The notes under the pieces were generated by a model, which did not search any database, was not told the DNA's origin, and worked only from the letters and a program-made list of their open reading frames with translations. Of a DNA stretch of 46,719 bases, positions 9,088-14,046 are shown in pieces. The DNA comes from Bacteroidota bacterium. GTDB taxonomy: Bacteria > Bacteroidota > Ignavibacteria > UBA10030 > SZUA-254. Location of the stretch: positions 1-46,719 of the forward strand of contig JASEHD010000007.1 in the NCBI GenBank assembly GCA_030019075.1. Direction: 5' to 3'. The position numbers and the translations under genes are program-made. How positions within the stretch are numbered: the stretch's first letter is position 1; every line of letters starts with the position of its first letter.

Positions 9088-9753
9088 TTATTTAAATGTA
9101 TTACCGAAAATTTTCTTATATTGACCATTACTGAAAGCGTATCTCTCATCAAAGGGTCCACGAAACAATTTTTTAGGGAAACGGATTCTCGCAAATCGGT
9201 TTTCCCAAACAATGACACCCAAGCCCTTTAATGAACCATCTCTATCAAAGACTTTCCTCAAAGTTATCAAGGCACTGATAGTAGTGTTGAAAGGTTTAGC
9301 TGGAGTACCCATTTTGCCCTTAGAAAGAAATGCCATATGTTCAGACTTTGGGATTGATTTTCCAGTTTTAAGATTGACATACCATGATATTCCAACGTCT
9401 CCGTACATAGCGCCGGCAACAACATGTGGCATAGTTAAATGAACCAAAGGTGCGTTGTTATTGTAAAGAACGAGTGCACATGGCCATTGCTTGAAATCCT
9501 GGAATTTACCTTTAGCCTTATGAATGTGGTTTCGGATACGATTGTAAGGGTCATAGCAGCCATGGGGGGAAGCGAGCTTCGTATAATTAAAGTCCTTAAC
9601 CTCAAATAAGAATTCTTTGCGCTTTATTATGACACTATAATCAAGTTTTGTTGTAGTGTGCTTAAATGTTTTTTCAAAATCGAAGTCAGCCAAACCTTGC
9701 GAAATCAAATAACGCTCGAAAAGTTTCTCACCAATTGTTCGTTTTTTATACAT
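9088..9753 (-). CDS. Putative PD-(D/E)XK-type nuclease-like protein
   Basis: A 221-residue soluble protein that I do not recognise as a named family. Residues 37-53 have the arrangement KLDYSVIIKRKEFLFEVKD, i.e. D38 and E51-x-K53 on adjacent strands, after an N-terminal helix with Glu (GEKLFERYL). This is the core pattern of the PD-(D/E)XK nuclease superfamily (restriction and repair enzymes). The middle contains HVV and hydrophobic strands, and the C-terminus is basic (ARIRFPKKLFRGPFDERY). It has no methyltransferase neighbour. It sits alone between two 26-bp direct repeats, which suggests it may have arrived as a small mobile unit. Nuclease activity is inferred from the motif only. Confidence 0.55.
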   Translation of the reverse strand: MYKKRTIGEKLFERYLISQGLADFDFEKTFKHTTTKLDYSVIIKRKEFLFEVKDFNYTKLASPHGCYDPYNRIRNHIHKAKGKFQDFKQWPCALVLYNNNAPLVHLTMPHVVAGAMYGDVGISWYVNLKTGKSIPKSEHMAFLSKGKMGTPAKPFNTTISALITLRKVFDRDGSLKGLGVIVWENRFARIRFPKKLFRGPFDERYAFSNGQYKKIFGNTFK

Positions 9754-9949: not shown

Positions 9950-10151
9950 TTATCCAAACAAATCAGATATGGCATTCTCGACAATCTTTATAGCTACCGT
10001 GAAGTGCGTGTTCTCTATATTTCTGATCTAATTTTTCTTCGCAGACAAGTTTCTCAATAACTTCTACCAACTTTTCAATTTCCCGTCCCTGCTTTTTGGA
10101 AAGTTTGTAATCTTTCTTAAACTGGTTTGTTCTAAGAATAGTGAGCATCAA
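9950..10151 (-). pseudogene. YafQ/RelE-family toxin with internal deletion and frameshift
   Basis: The frame from ATG 10149-10151 gives 62 residues (TNQFKKDYKLSKKQGREIEKL...REHALHGSYKDCRECHI), matching the first two thirds of YafQ mRNA interferases, then stops at 9963. In normal YafQ the sequence continues EPDW.LIY...TGTH..LFG. Here the bases directly after RECHI read, in another frame, Ser-Asp-Leu-Phe-Gly-stop (9950-9967), which is the usual YafQ C-terminus. About 25 codons including the EPDW and TGTH catalytic region have therefore been deleted, with a shift of frame. The antitoxin gene overlaps its start by 4 bp. The product should lack RNase activity. Confidence 0.75.
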
Positions 10152-10408
10152 CTCTCAAGGTCAATCATCAATTCTTTTACCGTATCAAACTTCTTCACAC
10201 CTCTTTTTTTCCTTGCATCTTCGATTGCTTTCTTTGTTACCGAATTCGGTACGAATATTTTAAACGGTATACCTTTAAAGTTCACAACCGTAGCGAAAAA
10301 GATTGATACTGCTTGAGAAGTTGTCAATCCAAGTTTGTGGAATATCTCATCAGCATTTTTCTTGAGCTTCGGCTCTACTCTCGTACTTAACATCACTGTC
10401 TTGGGCAT
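10148..10408 (-). CDS. RelB/DinJ family antitoxin
   Basis: An 86-residue protein, the same length as E. coli DinJ. The N-terminal ribbon-helix-helix (MLSTRVEPKLKKNADEIFHKLGLTTSQAVSIFF) binds DNA, and the C-terminal half would wrap the YafQ toxin. AAGGAAAA precedes ATG 10406-10408. The stop overlaps the toxin start by 4 bp, the usual coupling in this operon type. The antitoxin is intact although the toxin is not. It may persist as an autoregulator or as an antidote against a related toxin elsewhere. A perfect inverted repeat at 10437-10453 lies upstream, as expected for autorepression. Confidence 0.9.
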   Translation of the reverse strand: MPKTVMLSTRVEPKLKKNADEIFHKLGLTTSQAVSIFFATVVNFKGIPFKIFVPNSVTKKAIEDARKKRGVKKFDTVKELMIDLES

Positions 10409-10514: not shown

Positions 10515-10545
10515 TTGACAAAAAGACAAATTTGTCGTATCTTTG
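10515..10545 (+). promoter_or_regulatory. Promoter with embedded 12-bp palindrome upstream of the RecA-like/PolB2 cassette
   Basis: TTGACA (10515-10520) and TATCTT (10538-10543) are separated by 17 bp. The downstream box also reads TATCTTTG, which fits the Bacteroidota consensus TAnnTTTG. Between the boxes lies a perfect palindrome, GACAAATTTGTC (10525-10536), placed where a bound repressor would block RNA polymerase. A damage-responsive repressor such as LexA is an attractive but untested candidate. Confidence 0.7.
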
Positions 10546-10576
10546 AACAGTAGCTTTTCGCCAATGCAAACTGACA

Positions 10577-11218
10577 ATGACTTTTATGCAATCAACAAAT
10601 ATCGCAGAACTCCAGCCGCGTGCCGAGTTTGGCATTGTGGCACGGCGGTTTCAAGAGCAGCCGGCACGGCTGCACTTACTGCATGGGCATTCAGGCGTGT
10701 TTACCGCTGGACTTATCATCGGCAGTGCAGCACAGCAATCAATTGCAGTCATTGACGCCGCAACACGTTTCAACAGCTACACGCTCGCGAAGGTTGCAGC
10801 GTATCTTGGCATACCGGCAAAAATTCTGCTGCGTCGAACATACGTTACCCGTTCGTTCACGGCTTTTCAAACTGAAGCGGCAATCACAACAAAGCTCCCT
10901 CGTTTCCTCGCAGCTAATCCATGTCGAGTTGTGGTTATCTTAGGATTGCTGGACACATACTATGACGAGCAGGTAAAACCGCACGAGTGCCGGCAAAGCT
11001 TGCAGCGTATCCTGCACACGCTCAAAGATATGGTAAAGAAGAATATCCATGTTCTTATTGCCGATGTTGAAGTTGCCGAGCCGCCAAAGGGCAAAGAAAA
11101 TCTTTTTCAATTTATCAAAAACTCAGTTGATGTTGCAACTATTTTAGAGTCGTGTGAAAATGGTTTTCATTTTATCAATTGTTCTAATCACTATTCAATG
11201 AAAAAGCTTAACACTTAA
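10577..11218 (+). CDS. RecA/RadB-like protein with degenerate Walker A motif
   Basis: A 213-residue protein with the core of RecA/Rad51-superfamily ATPases. The order is a Walker A-like loop at residues 36-46 (HGHSGVFTAGL), IAVIDAATRFNSYTL, the RadA/RadB-typical TYVTRSFTAFQTEAAI segment and a Walker B-like strand VVVILGLLD (about 117-125). The Walker A lysine is absent (F42 in GxxGxFT), so ATP hydrolysis is doubtful. Size and architecture recall ImuA, SulA-like and Rad55/RadB mediators. It is the first gene after a strong promoter and stands upstream of a small helical protein and a PolB2-like polymerase, so a role in loading or regulating that polymerase is inferred. ATG 10577 is taken; ATG 10586 is possible. 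Confidence 0.65.
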   Translation: MTFMQSTNIAELQPRAEFGIVARRFQEQPARLHLLHGHSGVFTAGLIIGSAAQQSIAVIDAATRFNSYTLAKVAAYLGIPAKILLRRTYVTRSFTAFQTEAAITTKLPRFLAANPCRVVVILGLLDTYYDEQVKPHECRQSLQRILHTLKDMVKKNIHVLIADVEVAEPPKGKENLFQFIKNSVDVATILESCENGFHFINCSNHYSMKKLNT

Positions 11219-11222
11219 ACAA

Positions 11223-11246
11223 CAGTTCCTTTTAAGGAACTTTTTT
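11223..11246 (+). terminator. Hairpin with T-run after the RecA-like gene
   Basis: AGTTCCTT-TT-AAGGAACT is followed by TTTTT, immediately after the stop at 11218. It looks like an intrinsic terminator, probably partial, since the downstream genes have no strong promoter of their own. Confidence 0.7.
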
Positions 11247-11252
11247 CGGTTA

Positions 11253-11279
11253 GCGTTCCCATTTATGGGAATGCTTTTT
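11253..11279 (+). terminator. Second hairpin with T-run between cassette genes
   Basis: GCGTTCCCA-TTTA-TGGGAATGC (one G-T pair) followed by TTTTT. Two terminator-like hairpins in a row upstream of 11299 could form an attenuation site within the cassette. Confidence 0.6.
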
Positions 11280-11298
11280 AAGAAAGGAGAAAATAGTT

Positions 11299-11601
11299 AT
11301 GGGACGAAACAACGATACATTCACGCTTGTCGTCGACAAAAACAGAGAAACATGGAGTAAATTCCGTCGAGGATTGAGAAAGGAAGACCAGCAATTATTC
11401 GACGAGTTGTGGCGAGCACCGAAGCTGCATCTTGCCGCAGGGGCTTTCCTTGCCAGCGAAGTACCACTCGAAACAATATTGATGGCAATGATGCTTGAGA
11501 TGTATAAGAAAGTAAGATCGCTCGAAAAAAAATTAGGAATCGGAGAAATGGAGAGTTGGAGTAATGGAGTGGTGGAAAGATGTCAGATATCCGATGTCTG
11601 A
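11299..11601 (+). CDS. Small helical protein of unknown function in the PolB2 cassette
   Basis: A 100-residue protein with a strong ribosome-binding site (AAAGGAG, 11282-11288). It is predicted mostly helical (FRRGLRKEDQQLFDELWRAPKLHLAAG, then PLETILMAMMLEMYKKVRSLEKKLG). I recognise no family. Its last 17 or so residues (from MESWSNGVVE) are encoded by the dispersed repeat that starts near 11550, so the native C-terminus would be around residue 84. It lies between the RecA-like and PolB2-like genes, a position that suggests a subunit or adaptor of the same complex. It has no signal peptide or membrane segment. Confidence 0.7.
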   Translation: MGRNNDTFTLVVDKNRETWSKFRRGLRKEDQQLFDELWRAPKLHLAAGAFLASEVPLETILMAMMLEMYKKVRSLEKKLGIGEMESWSNGVVERCQISDV

Positions 11602-11745
11602 TGTTAGCTAAGAGCAGAGAGCTTAGAGCAACAAAGTACCAAGAACAAAGAACAAATCCGCTTAAGGCGGACAAATGACGATTGACCAATGACCAATTAT
11701 CAAACAATCCTAAATCCGAAATCCCAAATCCAAAATCTATTGGGT
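11550..11745. repeat. Dispersed low-complexity repeat of the 'GATGTCAGATATCCGATG' type
   Basis: A run of AGTTGGAGTAATGGAGTGG, GATGTCAGATATCCGATG, AGAGCAGAGAGC, AAGTACCAAGAACAAAG, a CCGCTTAAGGCGG palindrome and then AATCCGAAATCCCAAATCC. A clearly related run lies inverted at 15113-15262, and a shorter piece at 16163-16232. It overlaps the end of the 100-aa gene and the start of the PolB2-like gene. Confidence 0.75.
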
Positions 11746-14046
11746 TACTTCTTCGACCTCTACCCCACCCGCAGCGGCATGGTCGTTTGGATAATCGGTG
11801 ATGACGGGAAAGCATATCATTGCCTCGATCCGTTCCATCCATCTTTCTACATGAAACTTGTCCGAAAGGACTCCTTTGGAGAAACTTGCGACATGAAACG
11901 AGTTCTAACTCTTGCCCAACGCTTCAGATTTCCTGTAACAATCGGAAAAGAAAAGAAGCTCGAGCTTTTTTCTGGAGAAGAATGGGAAGTTATCAAAATC
12001 ACCGTACACAATCCGCTTCAATTAAATAATTGCGTCTGGACGTTTCAGAAATTTTTCCCTCACTTTGTTTTCTACAACAGTAACATCCCGGTTGCACAGA
12101 TGTATTTGTACGATAGGCAAGTTTTTCCTCTCGCTCATTGTGAGTTCATCATTGATCAAAAAAATATTCTCCAGAAAATCAATGTAAATGATAAGTTCGA
12201 TGCGTGCAATTATCAAATCCCCGATTTGAGAATTATGTATTTAAACAACACAGATTTCGGTACAAAATTCTCCCGCTCGCTCAATCTTGAAATCAGTTAC
12301 GAAGAAAAAGCCTACACCATCGAACAAAATGATCCTGAAGAAGTTCTCCAGTCAGTGAACTGGCACCTGTACAATTACGATCCCGACATCATAATCTCCT
12401 CGTGGGGTGATGCAACACTTTTTCCGACACTTGCCCAGACATCAGCACGATATAAAATACCTTTGCTTTTTAATCGAGATCAATCGCAAGGGTACTTTAC
12501 AACGAAAGAAAGAAGTTACTGGACATACGGGCAAGTAATTCACCGTGATGCGGCGTTTATGCTTGCGGGACGATGGCATATGGATTCTGAAAACAGTTTT
12601 ATCATGGGCGAATCGGATATTGAAGGCGTGATTGAGCTTGCACGACTTACACAACTGCCGATGCAAAAGCAATCACGAGCGGCTATCGGAACAGGACTGG
12701 CAAGTATGCAAATGAGTTACGCGTACCGAAACAACATTCTCATCCCTGCTGAAAAAAAGGAAGGTGAAGACTTCAAAACTGCAGATGAGTTGTTACTGAG
12801 TGATCGCGGCGGACTCATCTTCATGCCCGAGCTTGGATACCACGAAAATGTTGCCGAGCTTGATTTCGCCAGTATGTACCCAAGTTTGATGGAAATACAT
12901 AACATCAGCCCCGAGACAATCAATTGCCGATGCTGCCATAACAGAAAAGTTCCGGAGCTTGGTTACACAATTTGCGAGAAACGACAAGGCATTGTGCCGG
13001 TAACTTTGAAACCTGTCTTAGAAAAGCGTGCTTACTACAAAGCACGGAAAAAAGCAGCAACGACACTCGCCGAACATCAAAAATACGACCGCCGGCAAAA
13101 TGCTCTGAAGTGGATGCTCGTTACTTGTTTCGGTTATCTTGGATACAAAAACGCACGCTTCGGTCGGATTGAAGCACATGAGTCTGTGAATGCTTTTTCT
13201 CGTGAAGCACTCCTCACTGCCAAAGAGATTGCTGAGGCAAATGGTTACCATCTTGTCCACGCAATCATAGATTGTATTTGGCTAAAAAAACCGGGCGCAA
13301 CTCACGAGGATTACGAAAAGCTTTCTAAGCAGATTAAGGATGTTGTCGGGGTAAATATTTCATTGGAAGGAATTTATAACTGGATTCTTTTCCCAAGCTC
13401 GAAGTTGGACCCCGGCATCCCAGCAGCACAAAAATATGTCGGTTGGTACGATCACGGTGAAATAAAAATGCGCGGCATAGAGACGCGAAGAAAAGACTCA
13501 CCACCGTACGTCAAAAAAATGCAGGCACGATTGCTTGAGATGCTTTCGGGAGCAAAAAGTATTTCCGATATTCAAAAATTAGTTCCTGAGCTTTTACGGG
13601 AAGCGGGATTCTACCTTCATGAATTGCGTGCCGGTAATGTTGATCCAAGAGAGTTGGTGCTTAGGCGAAGAGTTCAAAAAGATGCCGGCGAATATGCGAA
13701 CAATAATGTCAACGCCATGGTTGTGCGTGAGCTTGCGCAGTTTGGTGTAAACATTCAAGCTGGTGAAGTAATTGAATATGTTATTGTTGACCAGACGGGC
13801 AAACGTGATCCTCAGAAGGCAAAAAGTCTGCTCACCTACCAACACGAGGATGGATATGATATTGGAAAATACACCGAGCTGTTATTAAAAGCGGTTGAAA
13901 CACTTCTTTCGCCTTTCGGATACGATGTTGAAAAATTAGAGAGTTATTATAAAGTTGGGAAGATTAAGAAACAAAAGCCAGTGTTATATTTAACCACGGA
14001 TTGTCACAGATTACCACTGGTAGATATCCGTGCGGTTTCTGTGTGA
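11689..14046 (+). CDS. PolB2-like family B DNA polymerase with degenerate motif C
   Basis: A 785-residue polymerase. Motif A is intact (LD392-FASMYPS399). Motif B keeps the lysine (K474-WMLVTCFGYLGYKNARFG), but the usual NSxYG is VTCFG. Motif C, normally YxDTDS, reads HAI526-I-D528-C, so only one of its two acidic residues remains. The exonuclease region lacks the DIET motif and looks inactive. The thumb has RGIETRRKDSPPYVKKMQ. This resembles the PolB2 clade of archaea and a few bacteria, described as inactivated and, for crenarchaeal Dpo2, as a damage-tolerance enzyme. Residues 1-16 (MTNYQTILNPKSQIQN) are repeat-encoded and the domain starts at LLGYFFDLYP, so the true start is uncertain. Confidence 0.85.
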   Translation: MTNYQTILNPKSQIQNLLGYFFDLYPTRSGMVVWIIGDDGKAYHCLDPFHPSFYMKLVRKDSFGETCDMKRVLTLAQRFRFPVTIGKEKKLELFSGEEWEVIKITVHNPLQLNNCVWTFQKFFPHFVFYNSNIPVAQMYLYDRQVFPLAHCEFIIDQKNILQKINVNDKFDACNYQIPDLRIMYLNNTDFGTKFSRSLNLEISYEEKAYTIEQNDPEEVLQSVNWHLYNYDPDIIISSWGDATLFPTLAQTSARYKIPLLFNRDQSQGYFTTKERSYWTYGQVIHRDAAFMLAGRWHMDSENSFIMGESDIEGVIELARLTQLPMQKQSRAAIGTGLASMQMSYAYRNNILIPAEKKEGEDFKTADELLLSDRGGLIFMPELGYHENVAELDFASMYPSLMEIHNISPETINCRCCHNRKVPELGYTICEKRQGIVPVTLKPVLEKRAYYKARKKAATTLAEHQKYDRRQNALKWMLVTCFGYLGYKNARFGRIEAHESVNAFSREALLTAKEIAEANGYHLVHAIIDCIWLKKPGATHEDYEKLSKQIKDVVGVNISLEGIYNWILFPSSKLDPGIPAAQKYVGWYDHGEIKMRGIETRRKDSPPYVKKMQARLLEMLSGAKSISDIQKLVPELLREAGFYLHELRAGNVDPRELVLRRRVQKDAGEYANNNVNAMVVRELAQFGVNIQAGEVIEYVIVDQTGKRDPQKAKSLLTYQHEDGYDIGKYTELLLKAVETLLSPFGYDVEKLESYYKVGKIKKQKPVLYLTTDCHRLPLVDIRAVSV

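Follow-up and report, generated by a model that had tools for sequence, protein, structure and literature searches.

What is encoded by three co-oriented genes that lie behind a single promoter in a genome of the Bacteroidota, and what controls them? The genes in question are found in a stretch of 46,719 nucleotides (contig JASEHD010000007.1 of assembly GCA_030019075.1; hereafter the window) from a bacterium of the class Ignavibacteria, and it had been suggested, from the sequence alone, that they form a mutagenesis or damage-tolerance cassette built on a family B DNA polymerase (the original prediction). The genes make up an iRadA-PPB2-PolB2 operon, and the locus is, with good confidence, a damage-inducible translesion-synthesis operon of this type, under the control of a non-canonical repressor resembling phage CI (XRE-S24). 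The cassette itself is already known, in both archaea and bacteria, and the idea in the original prediction was right and already in the literature. The control circuit is the new part, with a CI-type repressor in place of LexA and an operator that we have not found described. The features of the locus are as follows.

10515 to 10520, forward strand: -35 element TTGACA; its distance to the operator is constant across 71 distinct sites
10525 to 10536, no strand assigned: operator palindrome GACAAATTTGTC, the predicted site of the XRE-S24 repressor
10538 to 10543, forward strand: -10 element TATCTT, at a spacing of 17 bp
10577 to 11218, forward strand: iRadA (213 aa), a RadA/Rad51-like core without the Walker A lysine and without the N-terminal domain
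11224 to 11279, forward strand: two terminator-like hairpins in the gap between iRadA and PPB2
11283 to 11289, forward strand: Shine-Dalgarno-like AAAGGAG, 5' of PPB2, read from the sequence
11299 to 11601, forward strand: PPB2 (100 aa), a small helical protein of the arCOG07300 type, whose conserved N-terminal arm reads MGRN here and MGRT in most relatives
11689 to 14046, forward strand: PolB2 (785 aa), a family B polymerase of the bacterial group G2, with motif C IID

As to the identity of the proteins, the first one had been described as RecA- or RadB-like and devoid of the Walker A lysine. The lysine is indeed absent, the sequence in this position being HGHSGVFT, but the protein is RadA-like and not RadB-like: a profile of 30 relatives gives 3.4e-9 against RadA in PDB, compared to only 1.2e-4 against RadB, and the AlphaFold model (predicted local distance difference test, pLDDT, 88.9) matches the cores of RadA, DMC1 and RAD51. 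By both profile and fold it groups with RadA rather than with an unrelated family, as a RadA-like partner that lacks the N-terminal domain and has a dead ATPase site. Pfam and NCBIfam alone identified neither iRadA nor PPB2, and searches by profile and fold were required. PPB2 has no match in Pfam and no convincing sequence match in PDB, and its model consists of helices throughout, the N-terminal arm being free. The first residues of this arm are MGRN in the window and in its closest relatives, and MGRT or MGRS in other relatives, bacterial and archaeal, the pattern MGR[TNS] being conserved from Archaea to Bacteria. The third open reading frame encodes a family B polymerase (Pfam DNA_pol_B, 7e-40; best NCBIfam matches to the PRK05761 subfamilies, approximately 1e-119), with Pyrococcus PolB as the best match in PDB. 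In agreement with the original prediction, its motif A (LDFASMYP) is intact, and its motif C (A-I-I-D-C) is down to one acidic residue, the first Asp of DxD being lost and the second, D528, being left. The motif B lysine is also intact, D528 is conserved in all of the bacterial and archaeal relatives shown in the alignment, and the motif C IID and the motif B KWMLVTCFGY are common to archaeal and bacterial PolB2, which places this enzyme in the PolB2 group.

The same motifs bear on the view that PolB2 may be an inactivated structural homologue, with a regulatory role in replication or repair and no DNA synthesis of its own. The loss of the first Asp of motif C is in line with this view, as is the label “inactivated,” given to PolB2 in the older literature (PMC4104785). 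However, archaeal PolB2 with the same IID is an active extender, according to more recent papers (PMC8764526; PMC11791011), and conservation extends to D528, motif B and the Asp of motif A. We thus consider a purely structural role improbable. A separate observation concerns its start: the C-terminal end of PPB2 and the initial 17 residues given to PolB2 (11560-11740) look as though they were encoded by repetitive words of the intergenic type (CAAATCC..., AAAGAACAAA...), and the true start of PolB2 may be a TTG near 11740 rather than 11689.

The small gene and the RecA-like gene do recur next to PolB2 in bacterial genomes, a check that the original prediction had set: the order iRadA-PPB2-PolB2 is kept in 36 of the 37 bacterial loci that have enough upstream sequence, across many bacterial lineages. 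The profiles behind this count include those same loci, and plain BLASTP from the window proteins gave the same neighbours. This conservation is also relevant to the possibility of a defence or mobile-element cassette unrelated to damage tolerance, which could be invoked because a RelB antitoxin gene and a truncated YafQ toxin gene adjoin the operon. A gene order conserved over so many lineages and a LexA-like regulator argue otherwise, and none of the three proteins contains a viral or defence domain by Pfam and NCBIfam (PADLOC and PHROGs not searched), and we find this possibility very hard to credit.

The operon has a close counterpart in the literature. Linkage of the genes was reported in 2014 (Makarova et al.) for archaea and several bacteria, as an arCOG07300 operon, with lexA in some of the bacterial operons (PMC4104785), and in 2025 the products were modelled as a heteropentameric PolB2 mutasome, of one iRadA, three PPB2 and one PolB2 (Timinskas, Timinskas and Venclovas; PMC11791011). 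A family B mutasome with the small protein as an adaptor, as originally proposed, is thus supported; it matches the published prediction (PMC11791011), and hence it is not new. Neither is it a separate bacterial invention, the system being described as archaeal in origin in the same paper. The shared features are the three families, the bacterial gene order, the ATPase-dead RadA, the helical protein with the MGR arm and the IID motif C, and the neighbours reported in these papers also include DUF72 and lexA. The window differs in its PPB2 arm (MGRN), and in the sections of these papers that we consulted we found no description of control through XRE-S24 and GACAWWWWTGTC, nor of operons with DinB. 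For the archaeal operon, damage induction has been reported, along with a requirement of Dpo2 for targeted mutagenesis and its role as an extender (PMC11791011; PMC8764526). The operon of Sulfolobus islandicus (PMC7390963; PMC8764526) encodes a homologous PolB2, also with motif C IID, and is damage-inducible and provides a translesion extender, but it is archaeal, and the link of its control by damage is to homologues of Orc1/Cdc6 rather than to a repressor of the S24 type. The mutasomes ImuA-ImuB-DnaE2 and Pol V (UmuD'2C-RecA) work alike, combining, under control of the SOS type, a polymerase with a RecA-family protein and a small or adaptor protein, but the families here are different: family B and not C or Y, and iRadA and not ImuA or RecA. 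No relation of PPB2 to UmuD or ImuB was detected. Assignment to the ImuA-ImuB-DnaE2 system was rejected, as the polymerase belongs to family B, the RecA-like protein is RadA-like and Pfam gives no match for the small one.

What, then, controls the operon? The promoter, TTGACA-17-TATCTT (10515-10543), ties for the top promoter score of the region, and GACAAATTTGTC, an exact palindrome unique in the genome, falls wholly within its 17-bp spacer, the operator GACAWWWWTGTC filling the space between -35 and -10, which bears out the earlier description of a strong promoter with a perfect palindrome. The upstream regions of the relatives show the same arrangement. The pattern TTGACAN{2,4}GACAWWWWTGTC is found in 55 of 150 related genomes, at approximately 85 sites, versus 3 for the reversed pattern, the genomes that have any carrying only one to three such promoter-operators each. 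From 71 distinct sites in the fetched loci the consensus is TTGACA-NNAC-GACA-WWWW-TGTC-G-TATNNT, and the hexamer spaced at exactly 17 bp agrees with TATAAT at 4.1 of 6 positions on average, compared to less than 1 at 16 or 18 bp. The palindrome is an operator within the promoter, and a repressor bound to it would cover the promoter. A chance origin of the palindrome was rejected, based on the approximately 85 versus 3 sites, the 71-site alignment, and the repressor genes and shuffled sequences described below. Other exact copies of GACAWWWWTGTC in this genome (contigs C149, C150 and C163) lie within genes or have no promoter match, and were taken as chance occurrences.

The candidate repressor is the product of the only S24-family match in this genome (C180:15199-15849), with the Pfam domains HTH_3, Phage_CI_repr and Peptidase_S24 and with PDB matches to the LexA core and P22 C2. 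Its own upstream region carries TAAGACATAATTGTCTTA, and in 29 of the 30 XRE-S24 genes analysed, this one included, the exact GACAWWWWTGTC is found within 200 bp upstream, two sites (with at most one mismatch) being present in 25 of the 30, versus 0.0 of 18 with the operator when the upstream regions are shuffled. The Ser-Lys dyad and the scissile Gly are present in all 30 repressors (the bond being A-G in 24 and G-G in 6), the residues in this genome being A105-G106 for the bond and S140/K176 for the dyad, and the core of the recognition helix, RT[LV]QRWE, is also constant in all 30. As a negative control, the operator was looked for upstream of recA, with up to one mismatch allowed, and was found in 0 of 30 cases, with none at the recA of this genome, and recA was rejected as a co-regulated gene. 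The operon is thus probably under a phage-type, self-cutting repressor and not under the usual LexA, judging from sequence data.

The operator has other targets as well. It precedes DUF72 genes, which often diverge from that of the repressor, and a radical SAM gene resembling SPL. In several relatives, the operator-headed operon contains DinB upstream of iRadA-PPB2-PolB2, and in these the Y-family polymerase would be co-expressed with PolB2. This pairing fits the properties of archaeal Dpo2, a poor inserter but a good extender past lesions (PMC8764526). Some further arrangements were noted. In one genome (locus L208, G040:C44), the operator heads DUF5131, XRE-S24, iRadA and PPB2, and the PolB2 match of this genome is on another contig, with an operator of its own. 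An uncharacterised protein of approximately 250 aa is encoded directly upstream of iRadA in five loci (L017:4297-5052, L019:4071-4865, L028:4099-5034, L009:3425-4213 and L013:349-1149). It follows DinB in several loci, is weakly similar to genes that are divergent from the operon elsewhere, and had no Pfam match in the one copy scanned. In L204 (G055) and L205 (G067), the exact operator is found upstream of two genes without a Pfam match, possibly further members of the regulon.

These data need to be weighed against a different possibility, that the operon does encode the PolB2 mutasome while a regulator other than XRE-S24 binds the palindrome, with control unrelated to DNA damage. Binding of XRE-S24 to the operator is a prediction, and four genomes (G009, G034, G058 and G084) have PolB2 and the operator without a detected XRE-S24. 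However, two of these four are incomplete assemblies (61% and 79%), and the same operator accompanies nearly all of the XRE-S24 genes, mostly in two copies. Within the order, 54 genomes have both PolB2 and XRE-S24, and the operator is present in 48 of them, versus 5 of the 20 genomes with PolB2 and without XRE-S24 (p approximately 2e-11, without correction for relatedness). Moreover, the further targets (DinB, the SPL-like radical SAM, DUF72) are all linked to SOS or to PolB2. A different regulator thus appears unlikely, and XRE-S24 remains our candidate.

Canonical LexA was also considered and was rejected as the regulator here, as its winged helix-turn-helix domain (PF01726) has no matches in this genome. 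The families without XRE-S24 still have the PolB2 operon, often with a gene for canonical LexA beside it, in several loci directly upstream of iRadA, the palindromes at such loci being different (for example, GGTATACATTTGTATACC). Among the genomes with PolB2, canonical LexA is present in 11 from one family (f4) and, at the class level, in all 8 of 8. As both regulators are self-cleaving S24 proteins while their DNA-binding domains are unrelated, damage control appears to have been conserved while the repressor was swapped. A similar replacement of LexA has been described for the non-canonical LexA of Bacteroidetes (PMC8565304), which likewise combines a CI-type DNA-binding domain with an S24 domain, possesses the Ala-Gly bond and the Ser-Lys dyad, is autoregulated, and counts among its targets an error-prone polymerase and SplB. 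The repressor described here shares the XRE/CI-type helix-turn-helix joined to S24, the bond and the dyad, and the autoregulatory operator (29 of 30). The operators differ, being GGA-N5-TCC or CTAA-N5-TTAG in Bacteroidetes (PMC8565304) and GACA-N4-TGTC here, and so do the regulons: recA is a target in several species in the former case (PMC8565304), whereas here neither recA nor a broad SOS regulon is included. The non-canonical LexA has been reported as exclusive to Bacteroidetes (PMC8565304), and the likeness noted here is one of features.

Based on these data, the following model can be proposed. In an undamaged cell, the XRE-S24 repressor would occupy GACAWWWWTGTC between the -35 and the -10 elements, excluding RNA polymerase, and would repress its own gene via the same operator. 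Upon DNA damage, RecA filaments would trigger self-cleavage of the repressor at A105-G106 by the S140/K176 dyad, expression of the operon would follow, and a mutasome would assemble from PolB2, iRadA and a trimer of PPB2 and extend distorted primer ends beyond lesions. Extender activity has been demonstrated experimentally only for archaeal Dpo2 (PMC8764526). Insertion opposite the lesion would come first, carried out by a polymerase of the Y family (for instance DinB, which is transcribed with the operon in some relatives) or by another enzyme. We also lean, if only slightly, toward a broader proposal, of a small damage-tolerance regulon uncoupled from recA, in which the phage-type S24 repressor, taking the place of canonical LexA at this operon, would control, through the spacer operator, only itself and a few bypass genes (the PolB2 mutasome and, in some relatives, also DinB, DUF72 and the SPL-like gene), making a switchable mutagenesis module of two polymerases, an inserter and an extender, in bacteria.

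A number of observations weigh against this model. The predicted binding of XRE-S24 to the operator is read from co-occurrence and from the geometry of autoregulation, and the six repressors with G-G depart from the A-G expected at the scissile bond. Five genomes (G003, G004, G010, G055 and G082) have XRE-S24 and no PolB2 match, suggesting that the regulon of the repressor is not limited to this operon. No clear, canonical beta-clamp motif was seen by eye in iRadA or PolB2 of the window; C-terminal motifs resembling QxELF or LNLFD are found in several relatives (for example, L011, L012 and L021). The gap of approximately 80 bp between iRadA and PPB2 (11219-11298), with its two hairpins (fold z-score -3.1) and the Shine-Dalgarno sequence, could uncouple the genes; as iRadA and PPB2 overlap in several close relatives, their relative expression may differ in the window. 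Finally, among the papers that we consulted on the PolB2 system, none contained an experiment on a bacterial member.

Until now, the bacterial PolB2 mutasome has been a prediction that offered no handle for experiments, and the operator, the single candidate repressor and the small regulon allow direct tests of its damage induction and mutagenicity, in a bacterial group where our reading turned up no SOS operator in print. The exchange of canonical LexA and a repressor of the CI type at one and the same operon presents a clear case of regulator replacement with function apparently conserved, and the co-transcription of DinB supports the inserter-extender model of bacterial PolB2.

Two minor observations concern the neighbouring genes, both on the reverse strand. 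The RelB antitoxin gene, followed by the gene for the YafQ-like toxin, occupies positions 9963-10408, and the toxin ends early, at 62 aa (RECHI*), with no evident continuation in other frames, suggesting that it has decayed. The open reading frame at 9088-9753 has a weak match to a NERD nuclease-like domain (Pfam, E 0.07).

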